From: Collinsella tanakaei
GTDB lineage: Bacteria; Actinomycetota; Coriobacteriia; Coriobacteriales; Coriobacteriaceae
NCBI RefSeq assembly: GCF_021531055.1
Contig: NZ_JADYTL010000004.1
Coordinates: 1-64,000, forward strand
Direction of reading: 5' to 3'
DNA: 64,000 nt
The translations under genes were made by a program, and so were the position numbers. Shown one piece after another: positions 16,255 through 52,200 of this stretch. The notes under the pieces are model-generated. The model searched no databases. It saw only the letters and a program-made list of their open reading frames with translations, and had not been told where the DNA came from. How positions within the stretch are numbered: position 1 is the first letter of the stretch; each line of letters opens with the position of its first letter.

Positions 16255-16255
16255 C

Positions 16256-16286
16256 CGACAAGTTGGTGCCAGGTACAAACCTGTCG
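16256..16286. repeat. R1 31-bp repeat
   Basis: One unit with termini CGACAAG/CTGTCG, starting one base after the ATPase 1 stop codon and directly before its terminator. Confidence 0.85.
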
Positions 16287-16288
16287 CG

Positions 16289-16323
16289 AGGCCCCGGAAG
16301 GCGTTCCTTCCGGGGCCTTTTTC
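16289..16323 (+). terminator. Terminator of Ca-ATPase gene 1
   Basis: AGGCCCCGGAAG and CTTCCGGGGCCT arms with a short loop, then TTTTTC. Confidence 0.85.
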
Positions 16324-16332
16324 ATGTGTCGG

Positions 16333-16420
16333 GGGCGTAAAAATACCCCAGGGGTTTTATTGCATCTGCGCGGGCATGCCCGCGCAGATGCAATAAAACC
16401 CCTGGGGTATTTTTACGCCC
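16333..16420. repeat. 88-bp perfect palindrome (R2 family)
   Basis: Two exact 44-bp arms meet at GCATGC (centre 16376/16377). Each arm contains TAAAAATACCCCAGGGG. It appears to be two R2 units head to head around a CATCTGCGCGGG core. It lies in the 423-bp gap between the two ATPase genes. Confidence 0.9.
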
Positions 16421-16561
16421 TCGGCCTCGATTCGCGGGCCAATGGTCCACAGCACATCCGGTGGGCGGTTTGGCGGGGCAATTCACGCGATTCGTAACAT
16501 GGTGTAAAAGAACATGAACAAATATGCTTATTGCCGTTGTTATAGGGTACTATTGCAAACA

Positions 16562-40118: not shown

Positions 40119-40258
40119 AAACTGTAGTAGAGCGCAGATGCCCTTCGAGCTGAGGATGTGCGGAACTCGTTATGCTCGTTTGCGACATCGCGTTCTATAT
40201 ATGTGCGGGGCACAAGCACCGTAGCCAAGAACAGAAAGCACCCGAAAGGACCGCTCGT

Positions 40259-40888
40259 ATGAAAAGCTACGGCTATGCCCGTGTGTCGTCGCGTGACCAG
40301 AATCTCAACCGCCAGCTTGATGCGCTGCAGGCGTTTCCGCTAAGCCCCGAATCCATCTATGTCGACAAATGCACGGGGGCGACTTTCGACCGACCGCGGT
40401 ATCAGGCGCTTGTCCGCAAGATGCAGGCGGGCGACGTGCTGGTGGTCAAAAGCATCGATCGTTTGGGCCGCAACTACGCCGAGATCCTCGACCAATGGCA
40501 CAGCCTCACGCGCGATTTGGGCGTGGACGTCGTGGTGCTCGATATGCCGCTGCTCGACACGCGCGGCACGTCGACGGAGGGGCGCGACCTGACCGGCCAG
40601 TTCATCTCGGACGTCGTATTGCAGCTGCTGAGTTATATCGCGCAGGTCGAGCGCGAGAACATCCATCAGCGCCAGGCGGAAGGGATCGCGGCGGCAAAGG
40701 CACGCGGCGCCAAGTTCGGCCGCCCACGCAAGCAGCCGCCCGCGGACTGGGAGGGCATTCGCGATCGAATCGCATGCGGCGAGCTCACGCAGGTCGAGGC
40801 GGCGCGTCAGCTGGGAGTCTGCCGCAATACCTTACGGCGATGGCTCAAGGAGGACCAGACGGCCGAGCCGTCGTGCGCAAGCCGGTAG
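40259..40888 (+). CDS. Serine recombinase (resolvase/invertase family)
   Basis: A 209-residue site-specific recombinase. The catalytic domain begins YGYARVSSRDQNLNRQ (nucleophile Ser10), with VVKSIDRLGRNYAEILDQW and the helix AQVERENIHQRQAEGI. The C-terminal GAKFGRPRKQPPADW leads into a Hin-like HTH (LTQVEAARQLGVCRNTLRRWLKE). Size and architecture are those of Tn3 resolvases and Hin/Gin/Pin invertases. No transposon or integrase cargo is adjacent; the next gene is the pilus operon, so DNA inversion there is a reasonable hypothesis. GAAAGGA precedes the ATG at 40259. Confidence 0.9.
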   Translation: MKSYGYARVSSRDQNLNRQLDALQAFPLSPESIYVDKCTGATFDRPRYQALVRKMQAGDVLVVKSIDRLGRNYAEILDQWHSLTRDLGVDVVVLDMPLLDTRGTSTEGRDLTGQFISDVVLQLLSYIAQVERENIHQRQAEGIAAAKARGAKFGRPRKQPPADWEGIRDRIACGELTQVEAARQLGVCRNTLRRWLKEDQTAEPSCASR

Positions 40889-41342: not shown

Positions 41343-44300
41343 ATGGAACACAAACGAGCGCACGGAACCTTTGGCTCACATTGCCGTCGCGGCCTGTCCT
41401 GGCTGCGCGCCGCTGCGGTGACCGCTGCGGTGGCATGCGGCATGCTCATCGCGCCCGGTGTGGCCGAGTACGCTTGGGCGGCCGAGGGCGACGGCAGCGA
41501 CATGACGATCAACCTGCACGATTACAGCAGGGAGAACCCTGACATCAACGAGGGGCATGCTCTGAAATTCGGCAGTGTCGACGGTCAGGCTGGGGAGAAT
41601 ATCAATGCCTGGACCGGCAGCGGCGGCGGCGTATATCAGGGTATCGTTGCTAGCACGATTGGCGAAAATGGGTACCCGCGCCTTGCAGACCGATATGGTG
41701 GGGAGAGCTTGGACTATCTGTTCAAGTCGAAAACCGAGGGTGAGGCTCGGGGCGTCACGAGTTTCGACAACGTGACCGGTCTGTTCCGCTTGGATGAAGA
41801 AGGCTACTACGTCTACGATAGTAGCGAGAATTACGCGTATTACGATGAGGGCAGCAACTCGTTTGTGCGCTTGGATTACCCGCGTTACTCCGAGTATGGC
41901 GATAACGGCAGCATTGCTCCTTCGCTGCCGCAGTTCCTGCCGTTCAACAGCTTGACGAGAGATGTGAGCACGTACGATAGCAGTGGTAACCCTCTGCAGT
42001 GGCGTCGGGTCAACAGACGATATCAATGGGGTTATTTCGACAGCAACGGCCGTTGGCATCAGTCTGACCCCGCGGCAACCGGTTACGACGTCAACGATGA
42101 TGTGAACTACTCCTTTGGCATGGATTTCACCAAGACGTTCTATATGCCCAAGGACGGTCAGGTCAACGGTTCTGACATGATTTTCGACTTCACAGGCGAT
42201 GACGATGTGTGGGTCTTCATCGACGACGTGCTCGTGCTCGACCTCGGTGGCATCCATGATGCCTATAACGGTTCGATCAACTTTGCCACCGGCGAGGTGA
42301 CCGTCAACGCGACAGACAATGGTCAAGCGATCGGCACCGAAAACATCGCCAATATCTTCGAAGCTGCTGGTGAAGAGTGGGACGGATCCGACTACAGCAC
42401 GCACACCATCAAGTTCTACTACTTGGAGCGCGGCGATGGCGGTTCCAATTGCCGTATCCGCTTCAACATGCCGACTGTACCCGATGGCACGATCGAGGTA
42501 GGCAAGCAGGTCACCGATACCAACACCGCTGACTTCGTAAACGCCGAGTTCACCATGAAGGTCGAGACCGCCGATTCCGAGAACGGTTCCTGGTCGACCT
42601 ACGTCGGCGAGTACAAGCTCTTCGATTTGGACGGAAACCCGATTTATGACGAGAATGGCGTGCAAGTTACTGGGCAAACCAACGAAGACGGCACCTTTAC
42701 GCTGAAGCATGATCAGGTTGCACAGCTGACGGGAGCCGTGCAGCACGAGGGAGACGCTGAGGCCCATAAAATCCGCGCCAACACCTGGTACAAGGTGACC
42801 GAGACGGGTGCCGACGGCTATTCGAATGATTATGAGTTCGATCTCCAGAATACGGATCTTATTGATGATTCCGGAGATGAGCAGACCGATCCCAGCTTAA
42901 TCGGTAAGTCGAAGCCTGTCCGCGTGGATAGAAGTGCGCGTATGGTCGTGCGCAACAGGTTTACGGCGAAGGACAAGTATTCTTTCTCCATCCAGAAGCA
43001 CATGGAAGACAACTCGACTCCTGATGATACATTCTGCATCAAGGTGACCGATGCCGACGGTAACGCGGTGACGGGTGCACAGTATTACGTGCGCACCATC
43101 GGTGAGGGCGTGGGTGAGACCCAGGCCATGCCGGAGAGCGGCATCATCGAACTCAAAGCAAACCAGGAGATCGTCATCCTTGACGTTGCCTTGGGTGCCA
43201 CCTTCAAGGTCGAAGAGGTCAACGCAGATGGAACTCCGTTTACGAGCGATGAGTTCAAGGATCCGAAGTATGCCGTCCAGGTGGGCACAGATAAGACGGA
43301 GCCGTCAACTGAGCCTGTGACCGTGACGATCGAGCATAGCGACGGTGATCAGATCTCCTATATCGCTCACGTGATCAACGCGTACCAAGTCGTGCCCGTG
43401 ACCGCTCTTCCGGGGACGATCGGTATCACCAAGACGCTCAACGGCCTTGCGCTCGAAGCCGATATGTTCAAGTTCCAGATCGACGCTCAGGCAACCGGTA
43501 CAGGCGACAACGCGGTTTCTGCCGAGCAGGCGGCTGAGAAGGCTGGCCTGAGCGATACGACGGTCACAGTCACGAACGGCGAAGAAACTGCAAACGCGGG
43601 CGTGCAAAGCGACGCTTTCGCCTTCTTGGGTGGCATGACCTTTACCAAGGATGATGATGGCTTGGTCTACGAGTACGTGATTTCCGAGGTAGGCCTAAAC
43701 GAGAATTACAATGGCGAGCATAAGAGCGAGTCTGAGTACGACTTCGACACCACGCAGTATCGCATCCAGTTCGTCGCTGAGAAAGTTCAGGATGACGAAA
43801 GTCGCGATGTGATGCATCTCAAGGTGTATCAGGCCACGCGCGATGGATCCGAGGGCCAGTGGGGCGAAAATGCCCTGCTCGGAACCTTTGATGGATACGA
43901 TTGGATTGCGGATGGCTCTGCTGTATCGAGTCGCACCTTAATTGGCGAGTTCCTGGTCAACTTCACCAACAGCTACGAGCCGCTCGGCCTGGTCATCCAG
44001 AAGGAGGACGAATCCGGAGACCCGCTCGAGAACGCGTACTTCACGCTGTTCGTTGACAAGGATGACGATGGCACGTATGACGCCGAGACCGATACCGAGG
44101 TCGCTTCGCCCGTGTACGGCACCGCCGACATGACCGGTGACACGCTCACCAAAGACGGTTTCGCCACGAAGCTGAACGGCGATAATCCCGATCGTGCGAT
44201 CGCCTCGTTCTACGGGCTCAAGCCCGGCACGTACTTCATCGTCGAGACGAAGGCGCCTGCCGGCTATCAGCTGGCCGAGCCCGCGACGCTCGTCATCGGT

Positions 44301-44501
44301 GAGGATCGTACTTTCACGATTAATGAAACCAGTATCGAGAACGTCGAGAACGGCGTGGCTACCTACACCATCACCGATCTTGCAATCGCGGAGCTCCCCA
44401 CCACGGGGTCTTCCGGCACGCTGCTGATGTCCACCGCCGGTGTGGCGACGGTTGTCGTCGCCGGTTGCTACCTGGCGCTTCGCCTCAAGCTCAAGCGCTA
44501 G
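41343..44501 (+). CDS. LPXTG-anchored fibro-slime adhesin, probable pilus tip protein
   Basis: A 1052-residue secreted, wall-linked protein. A signal peptide (about 1-48, hydrophobic core AAAVTAAVACGMLIAPGV) is followed by a fibro-slime domain (about 257-330: FGMDFTKTFYMP..., DFTGDDDVWVFIDDVLVLDLGGIHD), then several Cna-B/SpaA-like beta domains, one with an E-box in VETKAPAGYQL, and the sorting signal LPTTG (about 1017) with hydrophobic segment and KLKR tail. First gene of the pilus operon; GGGGAAGG precedes the ATG. Large size and adhesin-type domain suggest the tip pilin; the ligand is unknown. Coding is less GC-rich than its neighbours. Confidence 0.88.
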   Translation: MEHKRAHGTFGSHCRRGLSWLRAAAVTAAVACGMLIAPGVAEYAWAAEGDGSDMTINLHDYSRENPDINEGHALKFGSVDGQAGENINAWTGSGGGVYQGIVASTIGENGYPRLADRYGGESLDYLFKSKTEGEARGVTSFDNVTGLFRLDEEGYYVYDSSENYAYYDEGSNSFVRLDYPRYSEYGDNGSIAPSLPQFLPFNSLTRDVSTYDSSGNPLQWRRVNRRYQWGYFDSNGRWHQSDPAATGYDVNDDVNYSFGMDFTKTFYMPKDGQVNGSDMIFDFTGDDDVWVFIDDVLVLDLGGIHDAYNGSINFATGEVTVNATDNGQAIGTENIANIFEAAGEEWDGSDYSTHTIKFYYLERGDGGSNCRIRFNMPTVPDGTIEVGKQVTDTNTADFVNAEFTMKVETADSENGSWSTYVGEYKLFDLDGNPIYDENGVQVTGQTNEDGTFTLKHDQVAQLTGAVQHEGDAEAHKIRANTWYKVTETGADGYSNDYEFDLQNTDLIDDSGDEQTDPSLIGKSKPVRVDRSARMVVRNRFTAKDKYSFSIQKHMEDNSTPDDTFCIKVTDADGNAVTGAQYYVRTIGEGVGETQAMPESGIIELKANQEIVILDVALGATFKVEEVNADGTPFTSDEFKDPKYAVQVGTDKTEPSTEPVTVTIEHSDGDQISYIAHVINAYQVVPVTALPGTIGITKTLNGLALEADMFKFQIDAQATGTGDNAVSAEQAAEKAGLSDTTVTVTNGEETANAGVQSDAFAFLGGMTFTKDDDGLVYEYVISEVGLNENYNGEHKSESEYDFDTTQYRIQFVAEKVQDDESRDVMHLKVYQATRDGSEGQWGENALLGTFDGYDWIADGSAVSSRTLIGEFLVNFTNSYEPLGLVIQKEDESGDPLENAYFTLFVDKDDDGTYDAETDTEVASPVYGTADMTGDTLTKDGFATKLNGDNPDRAIASFYGLKPGTYFIVETKAPAGYQLAEPATLVIGEDRTFTINETSIENVENGVATYTITDLAIAELPTTGSSGTLLMSTAGVATVVVAGCYLALRLKLKR

Positions 44502-44518
44502 CGCTGGCTATGACGTGC

Positions 44519-44787
44519 GGCCGTCCGCACTGCGACGGACGGTCCGGCCTTTCGGTATCACGACCGGTCTGCCTTTACCGGTCCTGATATAACCCGCAGC
44601 TTCCCGACCTGCTGCGGATGCGGGCACATCCGACCTGCCCGCTGCGGCGCGAGGTTCGCGCCGCCCCCGAGGGCCTATCCCGACCTGGGCCCTCGGCGCC
44701 GCGTACGCGCGGCATCCGGGCGAGCTGACCCGACCCCAGCTTGCCCGGCACGACCTTTCGCGCGCCGTACCTGCGGTGCGGCGCGCT
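44519..44787 (+). ncRNA. Tandem hairpin array between tip and major pilin genes
   Basis: Nine GC-rich hairpins in about 270 nt, all on the pilus transcript: stems at 44521-44542, 44562-44583, 44594-44617, 44620-44642, 44644-44664, 44667-44696, 44698-44713, 44716-44748 and 44760-44786. Four loops (44601-44610, 44626-44636, 44676-44686, 44728-44736) carry CCGACC in nearly the same position, and a fifth unpaired CGACC lies at 44751-44755. The first hairpin ends in CCTTTC and might terminate weakly. No open frame spans the region. Function unknown. Confidence 0.6.
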
Positions 44788-44881
44788 GGATCGTTAGCTT
44801 TCGGGTGTGTTGATCGCCCGATGGTTATAGGAACGCTTGCAAGTGAGCAGATGCTGCATACAGCGGCGAGAAGGAGGAATG

Positions 44882-46282
44882 ATGCTCATGGTTAAGACGA
44901 AGAGGAGCTTCGGGCGCCTGTTCGCAACCGGTGCTCTTGCCGGTGCAACGTTGGCCGCGCTGCCCGGCATGGCGTTTGGTGCGTCGGTGCCCGGTTCCGG
45001 AAGCGTGACGGTTAACGGCCTGACTGACGGTGACATTGTCACCGCGTACCAGGTTGCCACTGCGGATCTGGGGACCGATGGAACTGTCACGTATTCGTGG
45101 GTCGATCCTGTTGACGACGTCGACGGTATCATCAACCTGAATTCCGGTAGCGATCTGACCAATGCCATCGATCAGGAGCTTGCGAACGATATCGCGCTTG
45201 CAGCATCCGGTTTTGAGGCGGCAGGTACGTCCGGCGAGGCTTCGGACGGTACGGCTAATATCGATGGGCTTTCCGCCGGCGTGTATGTGATCAAGGTAAC
45301 GAACGACGAGGATTCCACTCGCGTTTATCAGAACATGATCCTTTCGGTCAAGCCTGTCGACTCCAACGGCAACGGTTCGTTTGACAGCGCGGATGTCTTT
45401 GACGGCGGCGAGGTGACGCTCAAGGTCTCGACCACGGATCTCGAGAAAGTCGTCAAAGAGGGCGACGCCGATTACGGCCACTACATCAATACGCTGAGCT
45501 TCGGCGATACCGCTGACTTTAAGATCACCGTGACGGTTCCTACCTATGCGGATTACGAGGGCCGTACCTTTACGGTGACCGACCAGCTTGTGGACACCTA
45601 TTTCGATCTCGGCTCCCTTACTGCCGACAGTGTGGCCATTGATGGTCTCGAGCGCACGACCGACTATAGCGTGACGTATGAGAACGGCCTGATCACGGTG
45701 ACGTTTACCCCGGCGGGCCTTGCGAAGGCTGCTGCTGCCGGAACCGTCGACATTACCTATTCCGTTAAGGTTGACGCAACCGCTGCCGCCGTCGATGCCG
45801 TTTTGAACGATGCGACCCTGACGTTCGATAAGGACTCGGTGACTGAGGACTACACCGGTACGGTCACCGACGAGGACACTGCCGATTTCTATGCCCTTCA
45901 GATCGTCAAGAAGGGCGACGACGATACGCTGCTTCCCGGTGCGGAGTTTGAAATCACCTTCCCGGATGGCTCCAAGAAGACCGTGACGTCTGGTGATAAG
46001 GGCCTCACTGACCTCGTTGCCGCGCTCGGCTCGAATGACAAGATCACCATCACGGAGACCAAGGCTCCCGCCGGCTACAAGCCTGCTGCGACTACTGAGT
46101 GGACCGTTAATGTTTCCGGAGCCAACGACGACAACGTTATCACGTTGGATATCGTGAACACCAAGGACAACACCGTTCTCCCCACGACGGGTGGAACCGG
46201 TACGGTTGCCCTGACTGCCGCCGGTGTGGTTTTGATTGCCGGCGCTGCGATGTTCATCGTTCGTTCTCGCAAGGAGAACTAA
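44882..46282 (+). CDS. Major pilin (SpaA-like, LPXTG)
   Basis: A 466-residue pilus backbone subunit. The signal peptide (KTKRSFGRLFATGALAGATLAALPGMAFGA) is followed by D1, D2-type fimbrial isopeptide domains (D2 about 200-330, VTDQLVDTYFDLGSL) and a C-terminal Cna-B domain with E-box ITETKAPAGYKP. The sorting signal is LPTTG (about 431), then a hydrophobic stretch and RSRKEN. Major pilins are polymerised by class C sortases, two of which follow. AAGGAGG lies 4 bp from the ATG at 44882 and 10 bp from that at 44888, so the start is uncertain by two residues. Confidence 0.88.
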   Translation: MLMVKTKRSFGRLFATGALAGATLAALPGMAFGASVPGSGSVTVNGLTDGDIVTAYQVATADLGTDGTVTYSWVDPVDDVDGIINLNSGSDLTNAIDQELANDIALAASGFEAAGTSGEASDGTANIDGLSAGVYVIKVTNDEDSTRVYQNMILSVKPVDSNGNGSFDSADVFDGGEVTLKVSTTDLEKVVKEGDADYGHYINTLSFGDTADFKITVTVPTYADYEGRTFTVTDQLVDTYFDLGSLTADSVAIDGLERTTDYSVTYENGLITVTFTPAGLAKAAAAGTVDITYSVKVDATAAAVDAVLNDATLTFDKDSVTEDYTGTVTDEDTADFYALQIVKKGDDDTLLPGAEFEITFPDGSKKTVTSGDKGLTDLVAALGSNDKITITETKAPAGYKPAATTEWTVNVSGANDDNVITLDIVNTKDNTVLPTTGGTGTVALTAAGVVLIAGAAMFIVRSRKEN

Positions 46283-46378: not shown

Positions 46379-47887
46379 GTGACGGATGTGCCAAGAAGCC
46401 AGAAGAGTGCTGGAGGAGCGGGATCGACGACTCAACTGAGGGAACCCGTGGCGCTTCATCCGAAAACTCAAGGAGGTTTACGAGGCAGTTGTCGCAATCG
46501 AGCGGGTGTATCTGCGACGGAGGCGCGCGAACAAAGGGGGCGATTCCATCCGGATCGTGCTGGCTCGGGTGGAGGTGACACCGCCAGTGGATCCGCTCAA
46601 GCCCAGCGCGCAGCGAACTCGCGCCTTCGTGGCGGCGTGCTCGCGGCTCTGGCGCTTATCGTTGGATTATTGTGCGTGGCATATCCTATGGTGAGCGATA
46701 TGCTGAGCCAGAAGGAATACGGCTATGTCGTTGATGCGCAGGCCGAAACCGTCTTAGCAACCGACGAAGAAGACCTCTCAGCCGAGCGCGAGCTCGCGAT
46801 CGAGTACAACGAAAAGCTGCTGGGAAGCCGCACGATCATCACCGACCCGTTCGACCCCGATCAGGAACAGGTGACCGACGAGGAGTACGAGCGCGTGCTC
46901 AACCTCGGCGGGGATGGTGTGATGGCCACGATCACCATCCCTAAGATCCATGTGGAGCTGCCGGTCTACCACGGAACGTCCGACGAGGCGCTCCAAAAGG
47001 GTGTGGGACACCTGCAGGAGACGTCTGTTCCTATCGGCGGCGAGTCCACGCACTGCGTGCTGTCCGGTCATACCGGCCTGCCGTCCTCCAAGATCTTCGA
47101 CAATCTGGATCAGCTCGAGGTGGGCGACTACTTTATCATCACCGTGCTCGGCGAGGACCACGCCTACCGCGTGACCTCGACGGAGGTCGTGCTACCCGAC
47201 GAGACTGAATCGCTCGTCATCCAGCCCGGCGAGGACCTGGTGACGCTTGTGACCTGCACGCCCTATGGCGTGAACACGCACCGCCTGCTCGTGCATGCCG
47301 AGCGCTGCGAGGTGCCGGACGAGTGGCTGGAGAAGGGCGACGACGAGACCTTCCCGGCCGGCTACAGCGATCCTCCCGACAAGGCCCTGCTGCCGAGCGT
47401 GCTGCTCGGCCTGTTGCTCGCGGCTCTCATCATCGGCGGTTATGTGGGCGTGACGCGCTGGCGCAAGGCGCATGCTGCCCGTGCGTCGCAAAGTCCCAAA
47501 GGGGGCCAGGAGATAATCGGGACACGGCCGACGAGCTCCGTGCATCCAATCCAGCGGCCTATCGGTGCTGTCCCGCATGGGGCGCAGCAGCCCGTCCGTT
47601 CTGCCTCGCGGACGACCGGGGCTCCCGGCGTCTCTGGCGGCGCTCAAGGGGTCAGGCCGGTGACGGGTCGTGCACGGCAGCCGTATGCCGGTGGTACGGC
47701 TGGTGTGCAGCCGGTGCGTCCTGTCCGCCACAAGACGACGAATGCGGGTTCGCGACACAGCGCCGCTCCCGTGCGCAAGCTGGGGCTTCATGCCGCTCCG
47801 CCCAATGCCGCCGGTCGTTCGAACCGCTCGCCTAAGACGGGCGGCGTGCAAGGAGGGAGGCACTTCCGTGCGAAGGGCGACCGATAA
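46379..47887 (+). CDS. Class C sortase 1, with long C-terminal tail
   Basis: Transpeptidase that polymerises LPXTG pilins. The core has an N-terminal membrane segment (about 85-105), the catalytic His231 in VLSGHTGL, Cys293 in LVTCTPYGVNTHR and the following Arg, and a second membrane helix (LLPSVLLGLLLAALIIGGYVGV) typical of class C. Unusually, about 130 residues rich in Gly, Pro, Arg and Thr follow the last helix, and a 31-bp R4 repeat (47493-47523) encodes part of it. The start is uncertain: GTG at 46379 has GGAAGG upstream, GTG at 46448 is an alternative, and the first 80 residues look unlike sortase. Overlaps the next gene by 20 bp. Confidence 0.8.
   Translation: MTDVPRSQKSAGGAGSTTQLREPVALHPKTQGGLRGSCRNRAGVSATEAREQRGRFHPDRAGSGGGDTASGSAQAQRAANSRLRGGVLAALALIVGLLCVAYPMVSDMLSQKEYGYVVDAQAETVLATDEEDLSAERELAIEYNEKLLGSRTIITDPFDPDQEQVTDEEYERVLNLGGDGVMATITIPKIHVELPVYHGTSDEALQKGVGHLQETSVPIGGESTHCVLSGHTGLPSSKIFDNLDQLEVGDYFIITVLGEDHAYRVTSTEVVLPDETESLVIQPGEDLVTLVTCTPYGVNTHRLLVHAERCEVPDEWLEKGDDETFPAGYSDPPDKALLPSVLLGLLLAALIIGGYVGVTRWRKAHAARASQSPKGGQEIIGTRPTSSVHPIQRPIGAVPHGAQQPVRSASRTTGAPGVSGGAQGVRPVTGRARQPYAGGTAGVQPVRPVRHKTTNAGSRHSAAPVRKLGLHAAPPNAAGRSNRSPKTGGVQGGRHFRAKGDR
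47493..47523. repeat. R4 31-bp repeat inside the sortase 1 gene
   Basis: GTCCCAAAGGGGGCCAGGAG with following ATAATCGGGAC. Same length and nearly the same sequence as 26125-26155. It is translated as SPKGGQEIIGT at the start of the cytoplasmic tail. Confidence 0.7.
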
Positions 47888-48842
47888 CCGTGCACGCGGT
47901 GGGCGCGCGTCGCTGATCGTCGGGCTCGTGATGCTTGCGGTCGGCATAGGCCTGTTCGCGTATCCGACCGTCTCGGCGATCCGGGCCCAGATGGAGACCG
48001 ACGATGCGCTGGCGTCCATGCGCGAGGAGGATGCGGATGCCGATGCCGCGTCGGACGAAACGGCGTCGGACACGACCTCGGGTGGCGAGGGCGTGGCGGA
48101 TGTAGGACACGCGACGGATGCCGAAAAGGCGGCCGATACCACCTATCAGCAGCTCAAAACCTACAACGAGCAGGTCCGCGAGGGTGAGGGCGACGCGATC
48201 AACGACCCGTTCGCCTTCGATGACGATTCGCTTGCCGAGTTGGGGCTGCCCAACGGCATCGTCGGCTCGCTCGATATCCCGGCGATGGGTGTGACGCTGC
48301 CGCTGTACCTCGGATCTTCCTTCGACCATATGGCGCAGGGCGCCACCGTCGTCGCCGGTACGTCCATGCCGCTCGGCGAGACGGATTCCAACGTGGTCAT
48401 CGCTGCCCACCGCGGCGTGTGGCAGGGCCTTACGATGTTCCGCGACATCGAGAAGCTCGAGGAGGGCGACACGCTCACGCTGACGACGCCGTGGGACACG
48501 CTGGTCTATCGCGTGACGGGGTTCGAGGTGATTTTGCCCGACGATACCGACGCGGTGGCGATCCAGCCGGGACGCGACATGGTGACGCTTTTGACCTGCC
48601 ATCCGTACGGGCAAAACGCGCATCGTCTGCTCGTGTACTGCGAGCGCGTCGATGATGCGGAAGGGGAGTCGTCCACGGGCTCGATCGTCCAGGACATCGT
48701 GACCCAGCTGACGCCCGACCTGGAAAGTACCTCGCCGCTGCTCACGATCGAGGGCGTGCTCAAGCTGGCTGGCCTCGGCATCCTCGTGGCGCTCGGCCTG
48801 TATCTTATCGTGGACACGATCCGCCGCCGCCGCAGAAGATAG
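47868..48842 (+). CDS. Class C sortase 2
   Basis: A 324-residue sortase. Membrane segment about 15-38 (ASLIVGLVMLAVGIGLFAYPTV), an acidic linker (DADADAASDETASDTTSGG), then the sortase barrel with GSLDIPAMGVTLPLYLG, catalytic VIAAHRGV and Cys244 in LLTCHPYGQNAHR, and a C-terminal membrane helix. The GTG start at 47868 is set by AAGGAGGGAGG and overlaps sortase 1 by 20 bp, so the two are translationally coupled. One sortase may polymerise the shaft and the other add the tip or anchor the pilus, but which does which cannot be read from sequence. Confidence 0.88.
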   Translation: MRRATDNRARGGRASLIVGLVMLAVGIGLFAYPTVSAIRAQMETDDALASMREEDADADAASDETASDTTSGGEGVADVGHATDAEKAADTTYQQLKTYNEQVREGEGDAINDPFAFDDDSLAELGLPNGIVGSLDIPAMGVTLPLYLGSSFDHMAQGATVVAGTSMPLGETDSNVVIAAHRGVWQGLTMFRDIEKLEEGDTLTLTTPWDTLVYRVTGFEVILPDDTDAVAIQPGRDMVTLLTCHPYGQNAHRLLVYCERVDDAEGESSTGSIVQDIVTQLTPDLESTSPLLTIEGVLKLAGLGILVALGLYLIVDTIRRRRRR

Positions 48843-49221: not shown

Positions 49222-52200
49222 ATGCTTGCCACGATCGATGAGTTGATCCGCCGACGCTTCACCGCCGAGCTCGATATGCCCGAAAACGCCGGAAAGACCG
49301 TATACGATCTGTTCACATGGGCAAAACGAGACGTGCATCTGACTGACTACAAGACCGGCAAGGTGCTGTGCGACATGCACGACCTGGAGTTCCCCGAGCA
49401 CTATTCGCAAAACGCCGTGGACATCATCGCCTCCAAGTACTTCCGTCGCGCCGGCGTGCCCGGGACGGGTCATGAGACCTCGATGCGCCAGGTCGCGCAC
49501 CGCATGGTCGACTTCTGGGTCGCCGCGCTGATCGAGGAGGGGCTCGTAGAGGAGGGCGAGCAGGCGCAGATCCTGTACGACGAGCTCGTCTACATGATCT
49601 TGGACCAGCGTTTCGCGCCCAACTCCCCGCAGTGGTTCAACACGGGTCTCGAGCGCTCGTACGGCATCAAGGGCGAACCCCAGGGCATGTTCTACGTCGA
49701 CCCGGCAACCGGCGAGGTCGTGGAGTCGGCCGACCAGTACACGCGCACGCAGGCGAGCGCCTGCTTCATCGTGAGCGTCGAGGACAAGCTGCTCGGCGAC
49801 CATTCCATCTCCGACGAGTTCGTGACCGAGACCAAGCTGTTCAAGGGCGGCTCGGGCACCGGTTCCAACTTCTCCGCGCTGCGTGCCGAGGGCGAGCGCC
49901 TGTCGGGCGGCGGCGTGTCTTCCGGCGTCATGAGCTTCCTGCGCGGCTTGGACCGCAACGCCGACGCCATCAAGAGCGGCGGCACCACCCGCCGTGCCGC
50001 CAAGATGGTGTGCCTGGATATCAACCACCCGGATATCGAGAAGTTCATCACCTGGAAGGCGCGCGAGGAGGACAAGGCGCTGGCCCTCATGAAGATGGGC
50101 TACGACGGCGACATCAACGGCGAGGCCTACGCGACCGTCTCGGGCCAGAACTCCAACAACTCCCTGCGTATCGATAACGAGTTCATGCAGAAGGTCGACA
50201 ACCTCGATGCCGATCCGGACGCCACCTACCGCCTGCGCGGTCGCGTGGACCCCTCCAAGGACACCGAGGTGTCGGTCGCCCATATCTGGGACGTGTTCAA
50301 CGAGAGCGCCTGGCGTTGCGCGGATCCCGCGCCGCAGTTCTCCGACACGTTCAACGAGTGGCACACGTGCCCCGGTGGCGAGGACGGTCAGGTGGGAGCT
50401 CCGTACAACCGACTGAACTCGACGAACCCGTGCGGTGAGTACGCGTTCCTCGACGACTCGAGCTGCAACCTGGGCTCCATCAACGTGTACCGCTTCCTCG
50501 ATCCGGCGACCGGCGCCTTCGATGTCGAGGGCTACGAGCATGCGATCGATATCGCGCAGCTGGCGCTCGAGGCCTCGATCGAGTGGGGGCAGTTCCCCAC
50601 GCGTGACATCGCGCGCCGCACCTACCGGTTCCGCGCGACGGGTCTCGGCCTGTCCAACCTGGCGAGCCTGCTCATGGCGAGCGGCGTGCCCTACGATTCG
50701 CCCGAGGCGCGCGCATTGGGCGCTGCGCTCGTGGGAACGCTCACGGGCCGCAGCTACGCGGTGTCGGCCCTCATGGCCGCCAAGGTGGGGCCGTTCGACT
50801 GCTACGAGATCAACAAGGGGCACATGGCGCGCGTGATCCGCAACCACGCCCGCGTGGCGGGCGCGCGCGACGACGCGTACGAGAACCTGACGGTGCAGCC
50901 GCCCGCGGTCGATCTGGGTCTGCTCGAGCAGACGGGCGCATCCGGTTTGGCCGACGCGCTCGTGGATGCGTGGCGCGACGCCGAGCGTTTGGGCGAGGAG
51001 CACGGATACCGCAACGCGCAGGTGAGCGTCATGGCGCCCACGGGAACCATCTCGTTTGCCATGGATTGCGGGGCCACGTCCATCGAGCCGTTCTTCAGCC
51101 ACATGATCTACAAGAAGCTCTCCGGCGGCGGCTTCATGACCATCGCGAATCCCGTGATCGGCGACGCCCTGCGCCACTTGGGTTATGCCGAGGACGAGGT
51201 CGAGGAGATCTTGGCCTACGTGCAGGCGACCGATGACGACGGCATGATCGTCGACGGTAAGATCGAGGGCGCTCCGCATCTGCGCGACGAGGACCTGGCT
51301 GTGTTCGACACCGCCAACGTGTGCGGATCGGGCGAGCGCTACATCGACCCGCGCGGGCACGTGCTCATGGTCGCCGCGATGACGCCGCTCATCTCGGGTG
51401 CCATTTCCAAGACGGTCAACCTGCCGAACTCCGCGACGGTGCAGGACTTCAAGGATGTCATCATGCTCGCGTGGAAGACGGGCTGCAAGGGCATCACCCT
51501 GTACCGCGACGGTTCCAAGAACGCCCAGCCACTCAACAACTCGCTGACCGAGGACGCCGGCGACAAGGACCTGGGCGACCTGTCGTATGCCGCGCTGCTC
51601 GAGTACGCGCGCGGTGCGCAGCAGCAGTTGTCGAGCATGCGCGCCCCGGCGCAGCGCCGCCGCATCATGGGCATCCGCAGCGGCCACACGCATCTGGCGC
51701 AGATCGACGGCGTCAAGATCTACACCACGGTGAACCGCAACGAGGACGGCGAGATCTCGGAGCTGTTCGTGACCACCGACCGCGAGGGCACGACCATCAT
51801 GGGCCTGCTCAACTCGCTGTCCAAGACCATCTCGGTCATGCTGCAGTACGGCATCCCCGCCGAGCGGATCTCCAAGATGCTGCGTGGCCAGATGTACGAG
51901 CCCTACGGCTTCGTGCAGAGCCATCCCTACATCAAGTACGTCAATTCGATTTCGGACCTGATCTCCAAGGTCATCGATATCGAGCTCGGCGACTTCACGC
52001 GCGTGCAGATCAAGCCCGAGGGCTGGGCGCAGGTGGCGGGTGCCGTTCCCGCGCCCGCCGCGGCCGCTCCGGCGGTTGCCGACCCGCTGTTCGACGACGA
52101 GCCCGCGGTGAGCGACGAGGAGTTGAGCCGTCTGACCGCGGCCAAGCAGGACGAGGTACTCGAGGAGACCGGCGCCTTTGACAGCGGGGACGCCTACACC

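Follow-up and report, generated by a model that had tools for sequence, protein, structure and literature searches.

Between the tip adhesin and major pilin genes of a Collinsella tanakaei pilus operon lie nine tandem hairpins, four of which carry one loop core, CCGACC, and similar loops recur after other genes for sortase-anchored surface proteins in related species. We tentatively read the array as an mRNA-level 3'UTR module of the tip adhesin gene, which would show one loop repeatedly to a putative trans-acting factor; this is the explanation we prefer, at a chance that we rate somewhat below even.

Operon Context

The window, by which we mean the whole 64,000-nt stretch of DNA analyzed, belongs to a genome of 2.23 Mb (G000) and contains a sortase-pilus operon made up of a tip adhesin, a 381-nt gap, a major pilin and two sortases:

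41343..44501 (+), tip adhesin gene (open reading frame list; Pfam DUF7601, FctA, SpaA); 1052 aa, sortase-anchored, LPTTG
44871..44877 (+), likely pilin ribosome-binding site, AAGGAGG, assigned from sequence
44882..46282 (+), major pilin gene (Pfam SpaA, GramPos_pilinBB); 466 aa, LPTTG
46379..47887 (+), sortase (Pfam)
47670..48842 (+), second sortase (Pfam); the listed frame overlaps the first sortase and probably starts at a more internal site

Neither a promoter-like site nor a T-tailed terminator was found on the + strand of the tip-pilin gap. Since the array lacks a terminator and no promoter-like site precedes the pilin, tip and pilin are probably cotranscribed. The array holds just short, unconvincing open reading frames.

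A serine recombinase (resolvase) gene (40172-40888) lies immediately 5' of the operon and may mark it as a mobile or switching island, given that pilin relatives within the genus are few and distant. With the pilin as query, no close relatives were found in genome_contigs; the tip adhesin was not found in viral contigs. Elsewhere in the window, a very stable long inverted repeat with arms of ~40 nt (GGGGGCGTAAAAATACCCCAGGGGTTTTATTGCATCTGCGCGGGC; 16255-16430, fold z about -13) adjoins a terminator, and ARAGORN called a tRNA-Lys on the minus strand within a class II ribonucleotide reductase gene (49934-50007), probably a false positive.

Structure of the Hairpin Array

The gap between tip and pilin holds two different things, the CCGACC array and then a pilin leader of ~90 nt. 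Folding of 44502-44882 gave a minimum free energy of -209.3 kcal/mol (z -7.3), reached by 0 of 100 dinucleotide shuffles, and the nine tandem hairpins that a preliminary description had placed here are present at 44521-44786, beginning 20 nt past the tip adhesin stop codon:

44521..44542 (+), hairpin 1, loop CACTGCGA
44556..44589 (+), hairpin 2, stem in two parts (TATCA/TGATA and GACCGGT/ACCGGTC), loop CTGCCTTT
44594..44617 (+), hairpin 3, loop TTCCCGACCT, CCGACC at 44604-44609
44620..44642 (+), hairpin 4, loop CATCCGACC, CCGACC at 44630-44635
44644..44664 (+), hairpin 5, loop AGGTT or shorter
44667..44696 (+), hairpin 6, loop TCCCGACC, CCGACC at 44680-44685
44698..44713 (+), hairpin 7, loop TACG
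44716..44748 (+), hairpin 8, loop ACCCGACCC, CCGACC at 44730-44735; 30.5 bits in covariance model R2
44749..44759 (+), single-stranded CACGACCTTTC, CGACC only
44760..44786 (+), hairpin 9, 3-nt loop

Of the long intergenic gaps sampled from this genome (about 49, over 464 kb), this one is the most hairpin-dense, with 71% of its bases in hairpins vs 50% in the next-best gap. Both DNA strands of the array fold equally well. No T-run follows the hairpins of 44521-44786, which therefore lack the U tract that accompanies the GC hairpin of an intrinsic terminator; as a predicted stable structure between two cistrons, they are candidate protective intercistronic hairpins.

The claim that four unrelated stems present the same CCGACC core was borne out: the loops are 8-10 nt long and the stems have no common sequence. 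When the loop letters were shuffled 200,000 times, no 6-mer was ever shared by four loops, and one was shared by three loops in 142 cases. CCGACC was found in the loop of no other strong intergenic hairpin in the 464-kb sample and in none of 398 background hairpins. The supposed fifth, single-stranded copy has to be withdrawn, as CACGACCTTTC contains CGACC and not CCGACC.

A Separate Pilin Leader

Downstream of the array, a tenth hairpin opens the pilin leader proper (44795-44882), of which the CCGACC array is not a feature:

44795..44827 (+), tenth hairpin, TAGC-TT-TCGGG...CCCGA-TG-GTTA, outside the CCGACC array

This hairpin aligns with a GGCAACTC-hairpin-GGTGTTGATA element conserved in ten related, Olsenella-type pilus operons, from Olsenella, Thermophilibacter and Coriobacteriaceae. 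The aligned leaders run from the GGCAACTC-stem-GGTGTTGATA hairpin through another structured stretch, GTGGGCAATGCC, to the ribosome-binding site. Across the loci compared (L076, L077, L079-L082, L087, L089-L091 and the window), both sides changed in 11 of 27 predicted pairs, and scans of several of them gave no Rfam match to the leader. As an observation in its own right, the order GGCAACTC-hairpin-GGTGTTGATA ... GTGGGCAATGCC ... GAAAGGAG holds in eleven operons of Atopobiaceae and Coriobacteriaceae, the window included.

The array is absent from the ten other operons. Their gaps measure 114-158 nt and contain, 5' of the leader, no GC-rich hairpin or just one or two, whose loops vary, so the nine-hairpin array is probably an addition in the lineage of the window. 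These gaps also count against the setting of the pilin-to-tip ratio as a general role.

Arrays Downstream of Other Surface-Protein Genes

A search of related genomes, proposed in the preliminary description, did not uphold conservation of the array as a whole: no similar sequence was present in 60 relatives, and the loop alone is conserved. Whole-array DNA similarity was likewise absent from plasmids. Related arrays were instead found by pattern scanning, by a covariance model built on the hairpin and, in one case (G036:C45), by sampling wall-anchored genes. Every cluster found follows a gene for a sortase-anchored surface protein and lies on the sense strand of that gene. The 19 loops share the consensus W-C-C-C-G-A-C-C, and the stems and surroundings differ between loci.

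In G066:C57, a short FctA-domain fragment with IPQTGD is followed by three hairpins that have CCCGACC in their loops, the third of them being a T-tailed terminator. Inspection of this locus (L206, 16530-16861) identified the fragment as 109 C-terminal residues (FctA/IPQTGD), an apparent gene remnant that retains its hairpin-array 3'UTR and terminator. In G008:C12, loops ATCCGAC and ATTCCGACC and then a terminator with ACCCGACC lie 3' of a large FctA/SpaA/DUF7601 adhesin (VPQTGD) that is homologous to the tip protein of the window; a long inverted repeat, TTCACCTCACTTCAACCTCACTT, lies directly past this terminator (L267, 1570-1640). A second contig of the same genome, G008:C8, carries UCCCGAC in four or five loops, each on an unrelated stem, ahead of a terminator; this array lies 3' of an FctA-like repeat protein with IPQTGD. 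In G036:C45, loops CCCCGACCA and ACCGACCA lie 3' of an IPQTGD protein with Flg_new repeats. Weaker cases are G013 and, in the genome of the window, another wall-anchored gene, with two UCGACCC loops.

We propose to define this class as at least two loops resembling WCCCGAC(C), borne by unrelated stems, no more than 350 nt after an LPXTG-type gene, a pattern found in the window, G066, G008 (twice) and G036. Because a working-looking terminator lies downstream of the array hairpins at all of these loci other than the window, the hairpins are not needed merely to terminate. Clear arrays occur in about 4 of 45 species of the genus, where most wall-anchored genes are without them. When the model was run genome-wide on 67 genomes of the family and 397 of the order, no clusters were recovered elsewhere, and the order-level search, under strict filters, gave no array outside the family. 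Among the model matches outside arrays that were examined, all were coding or solitary. Several candidates were rejected: nearly all matches to three-copy and two-copy CCGACC patterns were coding Pro-Asp-Pro repeats or other genes, nearly all single covariance-model matches across the order were coding, and a match in G008:C1 (L461) is not an array, falling at the 5' end of a gene that runs divergently. We also rejected a derivation of the motif from common terminator loops, as the terminators of 864 kb have no such bias.

The motif is enriched after wall-anchored genes. YCCGAC in a local hairpin loop was found in 10 of 76 distinct 3'UTRs of such genes vs 2 of 354 other 3'UTRs, a contrast flattered by window length (fixed at 330 nt for wall-anchored genes, trimmed to a mean of about 177 nt for the others), so that a fair enrichment is ~ eightfold per kb. 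Without the four loci chosen via the loop model, the counts were 6/72 vs 2/354 (Fisher p=4e-4), some of the six remaining loci having weak stems. In the seven CCGACC hairpins, stem pairing survives both-sided changes, partly by construction, and the stems on the sense strand contain 10 G-U vs 0 A-C pairs, a count biased by the search.

Proposed Function

The arrays are best read as 3'UTR modules, as they share the class of upstream gene, have no common pilin downstream and in several cases end in that gene's own intrinsic terminator. Stable, interchangeable stems would hold up copies of W-C-C-C-G-A-C-C, to be contacted repeatedly by a candidate trans-acting factor, either a protein that binds RNA or an RNA that acts by base pairing. 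To end the transcript and block exonucleases, a terminator would be enough, so that extra hairpins with one conserved loop would point to a factor that reads it. Since the module follows several sortase-anchored genes, such a factor probably acts on surface-protein mRNAs jointly, through their stability, translation or placement. We infer transcription of the array, binding of the factor and any effect on expression. In the pilus operon, the internal array would also separate tip from pilin mRNA structurally, and may shield the 3' end of the tip mRNA after processing.

The earlier interpretation is supported in part: the conserved loop, the different stems, the recurrence in relatives and the sense-strand orientation all fit the suggested selection for a repeated RNA contact. 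Control of the pilin-to-tip ratio, also suggested, is not supported as a general role, since no pilin follows the other arrays and several have their own terminators, but it is possible in this operon by way of segmental mRNA stability.

A search for the partner gave no candidate. No complementary GGUCGG loop occurred among the sampled intergenic hairpins, and within the operon the only GGUCGG pairing partner was inside a sortase gene. ANTAR proteins (PF03861) had no match in G000, G066, G008 or G036; an ANTAR regulator as reader of the loop was rejected, the array genomes having no such protein and the loop being different.

Alternative Explanations

The main rival, which we hold to be rather unlikely but which can coexist with a trans-acting factor, is that the hairpins are a structural barrier only and the identity of the loop is incidental. 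After endonuclease cleavage they would shield the 3' end of the tip mRNA against 3'-5' exonucleases, or the 5' end of the pilin mRNA. The array does lie between two cistrons required in unequal amounts, in a gap with no promoter-like site or T-tailed + strand terminator, and related operons have one or two stable gap hairpins with other loops. Precedents are known from malE-malF and papBA of E. coli and from programmed operon decay, where stable U-less hairpins stand between unequally needed cistrons, including a pilin gene (PMC5927463). This account, however, explains neither why unrelated stems carry one loop in this operon and behind at least four other genes, nor why there are nine hairpins where relatives manage with one or two. 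The precedents mostly consist of a single structure or a pair, with no loop sequence described as shared (PMC5927463), whereas the present array has nine hairpins and a conserved loop, found again behind unrelated surface-protein genes.

It is improbable that the cluster of U-less hairpins terminates or attenuates transcription between tip and pilin. Several adjacent hairpins directly past a stop codon have been proposed as terminators (PMC8355165), and the array has this arrangement. Termination here would, however, silence the downstream pilin and sortases, before which no promoter-like site was found, and a proper terminator comes after the extra hairpins in G066, G008 and G036. The conserved loop would also go unexplained. 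Loop identity is irrelevant in hairpin-cluster terminators (PMC8355165); in our arrays, either a terminator follows or the operon continues.

An element acting at the DNA level, whether a cruciform, a recombination target of the adjacent serine recombinase or the remnants of mobile hairpins, appears very unlikely. The position of the resolvase gene, the equal folding of both strands and the apparent gene remnant upstream of the G066 array would suit such an element, but the stems have no sequence in common and so give no sign of copying, every CCGACC lies on the strand that is sense for the upstream gene, and on that strand the stems tolerate G-U pairs, as far as the search-biased count goes. 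That a GC-rich genome and a short motif gave GC-rich intergenic hairpins with C-rich loops by chance is scarcely credible, given the fold z of -7.3, the absence of four-loop sharing in 200,000 shuffles, the 0/398 background hairpins and the recurrence in other species.

Relation to Known Systems and Implications

Sponges of the CsrB/RsmZ type present one short loop motif, GGA, on many hairpins and are encoded by a separate sRNA gene. The array resembles them in repeating a short loop motif, but its loops carry CCGACC and no GGA motif, and it lies within mRNA 3'UTRs. ANTAR targets, which are read by a protein, are likewise tandem hairpins with conserved loop residues rather than stems; they consist of two hexaloop hairpins with A1 and G4 and short stems before a leader terminator, whereas the arrays have WCCCGACC loops of 8-13 nt in 3'UTRs (PMC3369931). 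A sortase pilus operon under RNA hairpin control, as proposed here, is also known from pil1 of Streptococcus gallolyticus, where attenuation uses a single terminator, placed before the operon as a whole, and a leader peptide with GCAGA repeats (PMC3894217).

Rfam 15 gave no gathering-score match in the window, and lax scans of the related arrays gave sub-threshold matches only. Searches of open-access full text gave no description of a shared-loop array of this kind. Intercistronic hairpins are known; a multi-hairpin 3'UTR array with a shared loop across genes for wall-anchored proteins appears, within the scope of these searches, to be new. It is possible, though doubtful, that WCCCGACC loop arrays form a new class of bacterial 3'UTR, read by a dedicated RNA-binding protein or sRNA that coordinates the fate or placement of sortase-anchored surface-protein mRNAs in Coriobacteriaceae.

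To our knowledge, hardly any work has addressed how gut Actinobacteria control sortase-assembled pili and wall proteins post-transcriptionally. Shared loops after surface-protein genes in related species suggest a common RNA-level control of their messages, and a loop common to several of these 3'UTRs could serve as a bait RNA, a direct handle for finding the regulator. If this is true, a regulon would have been built via loops alone while the stems drift freely.
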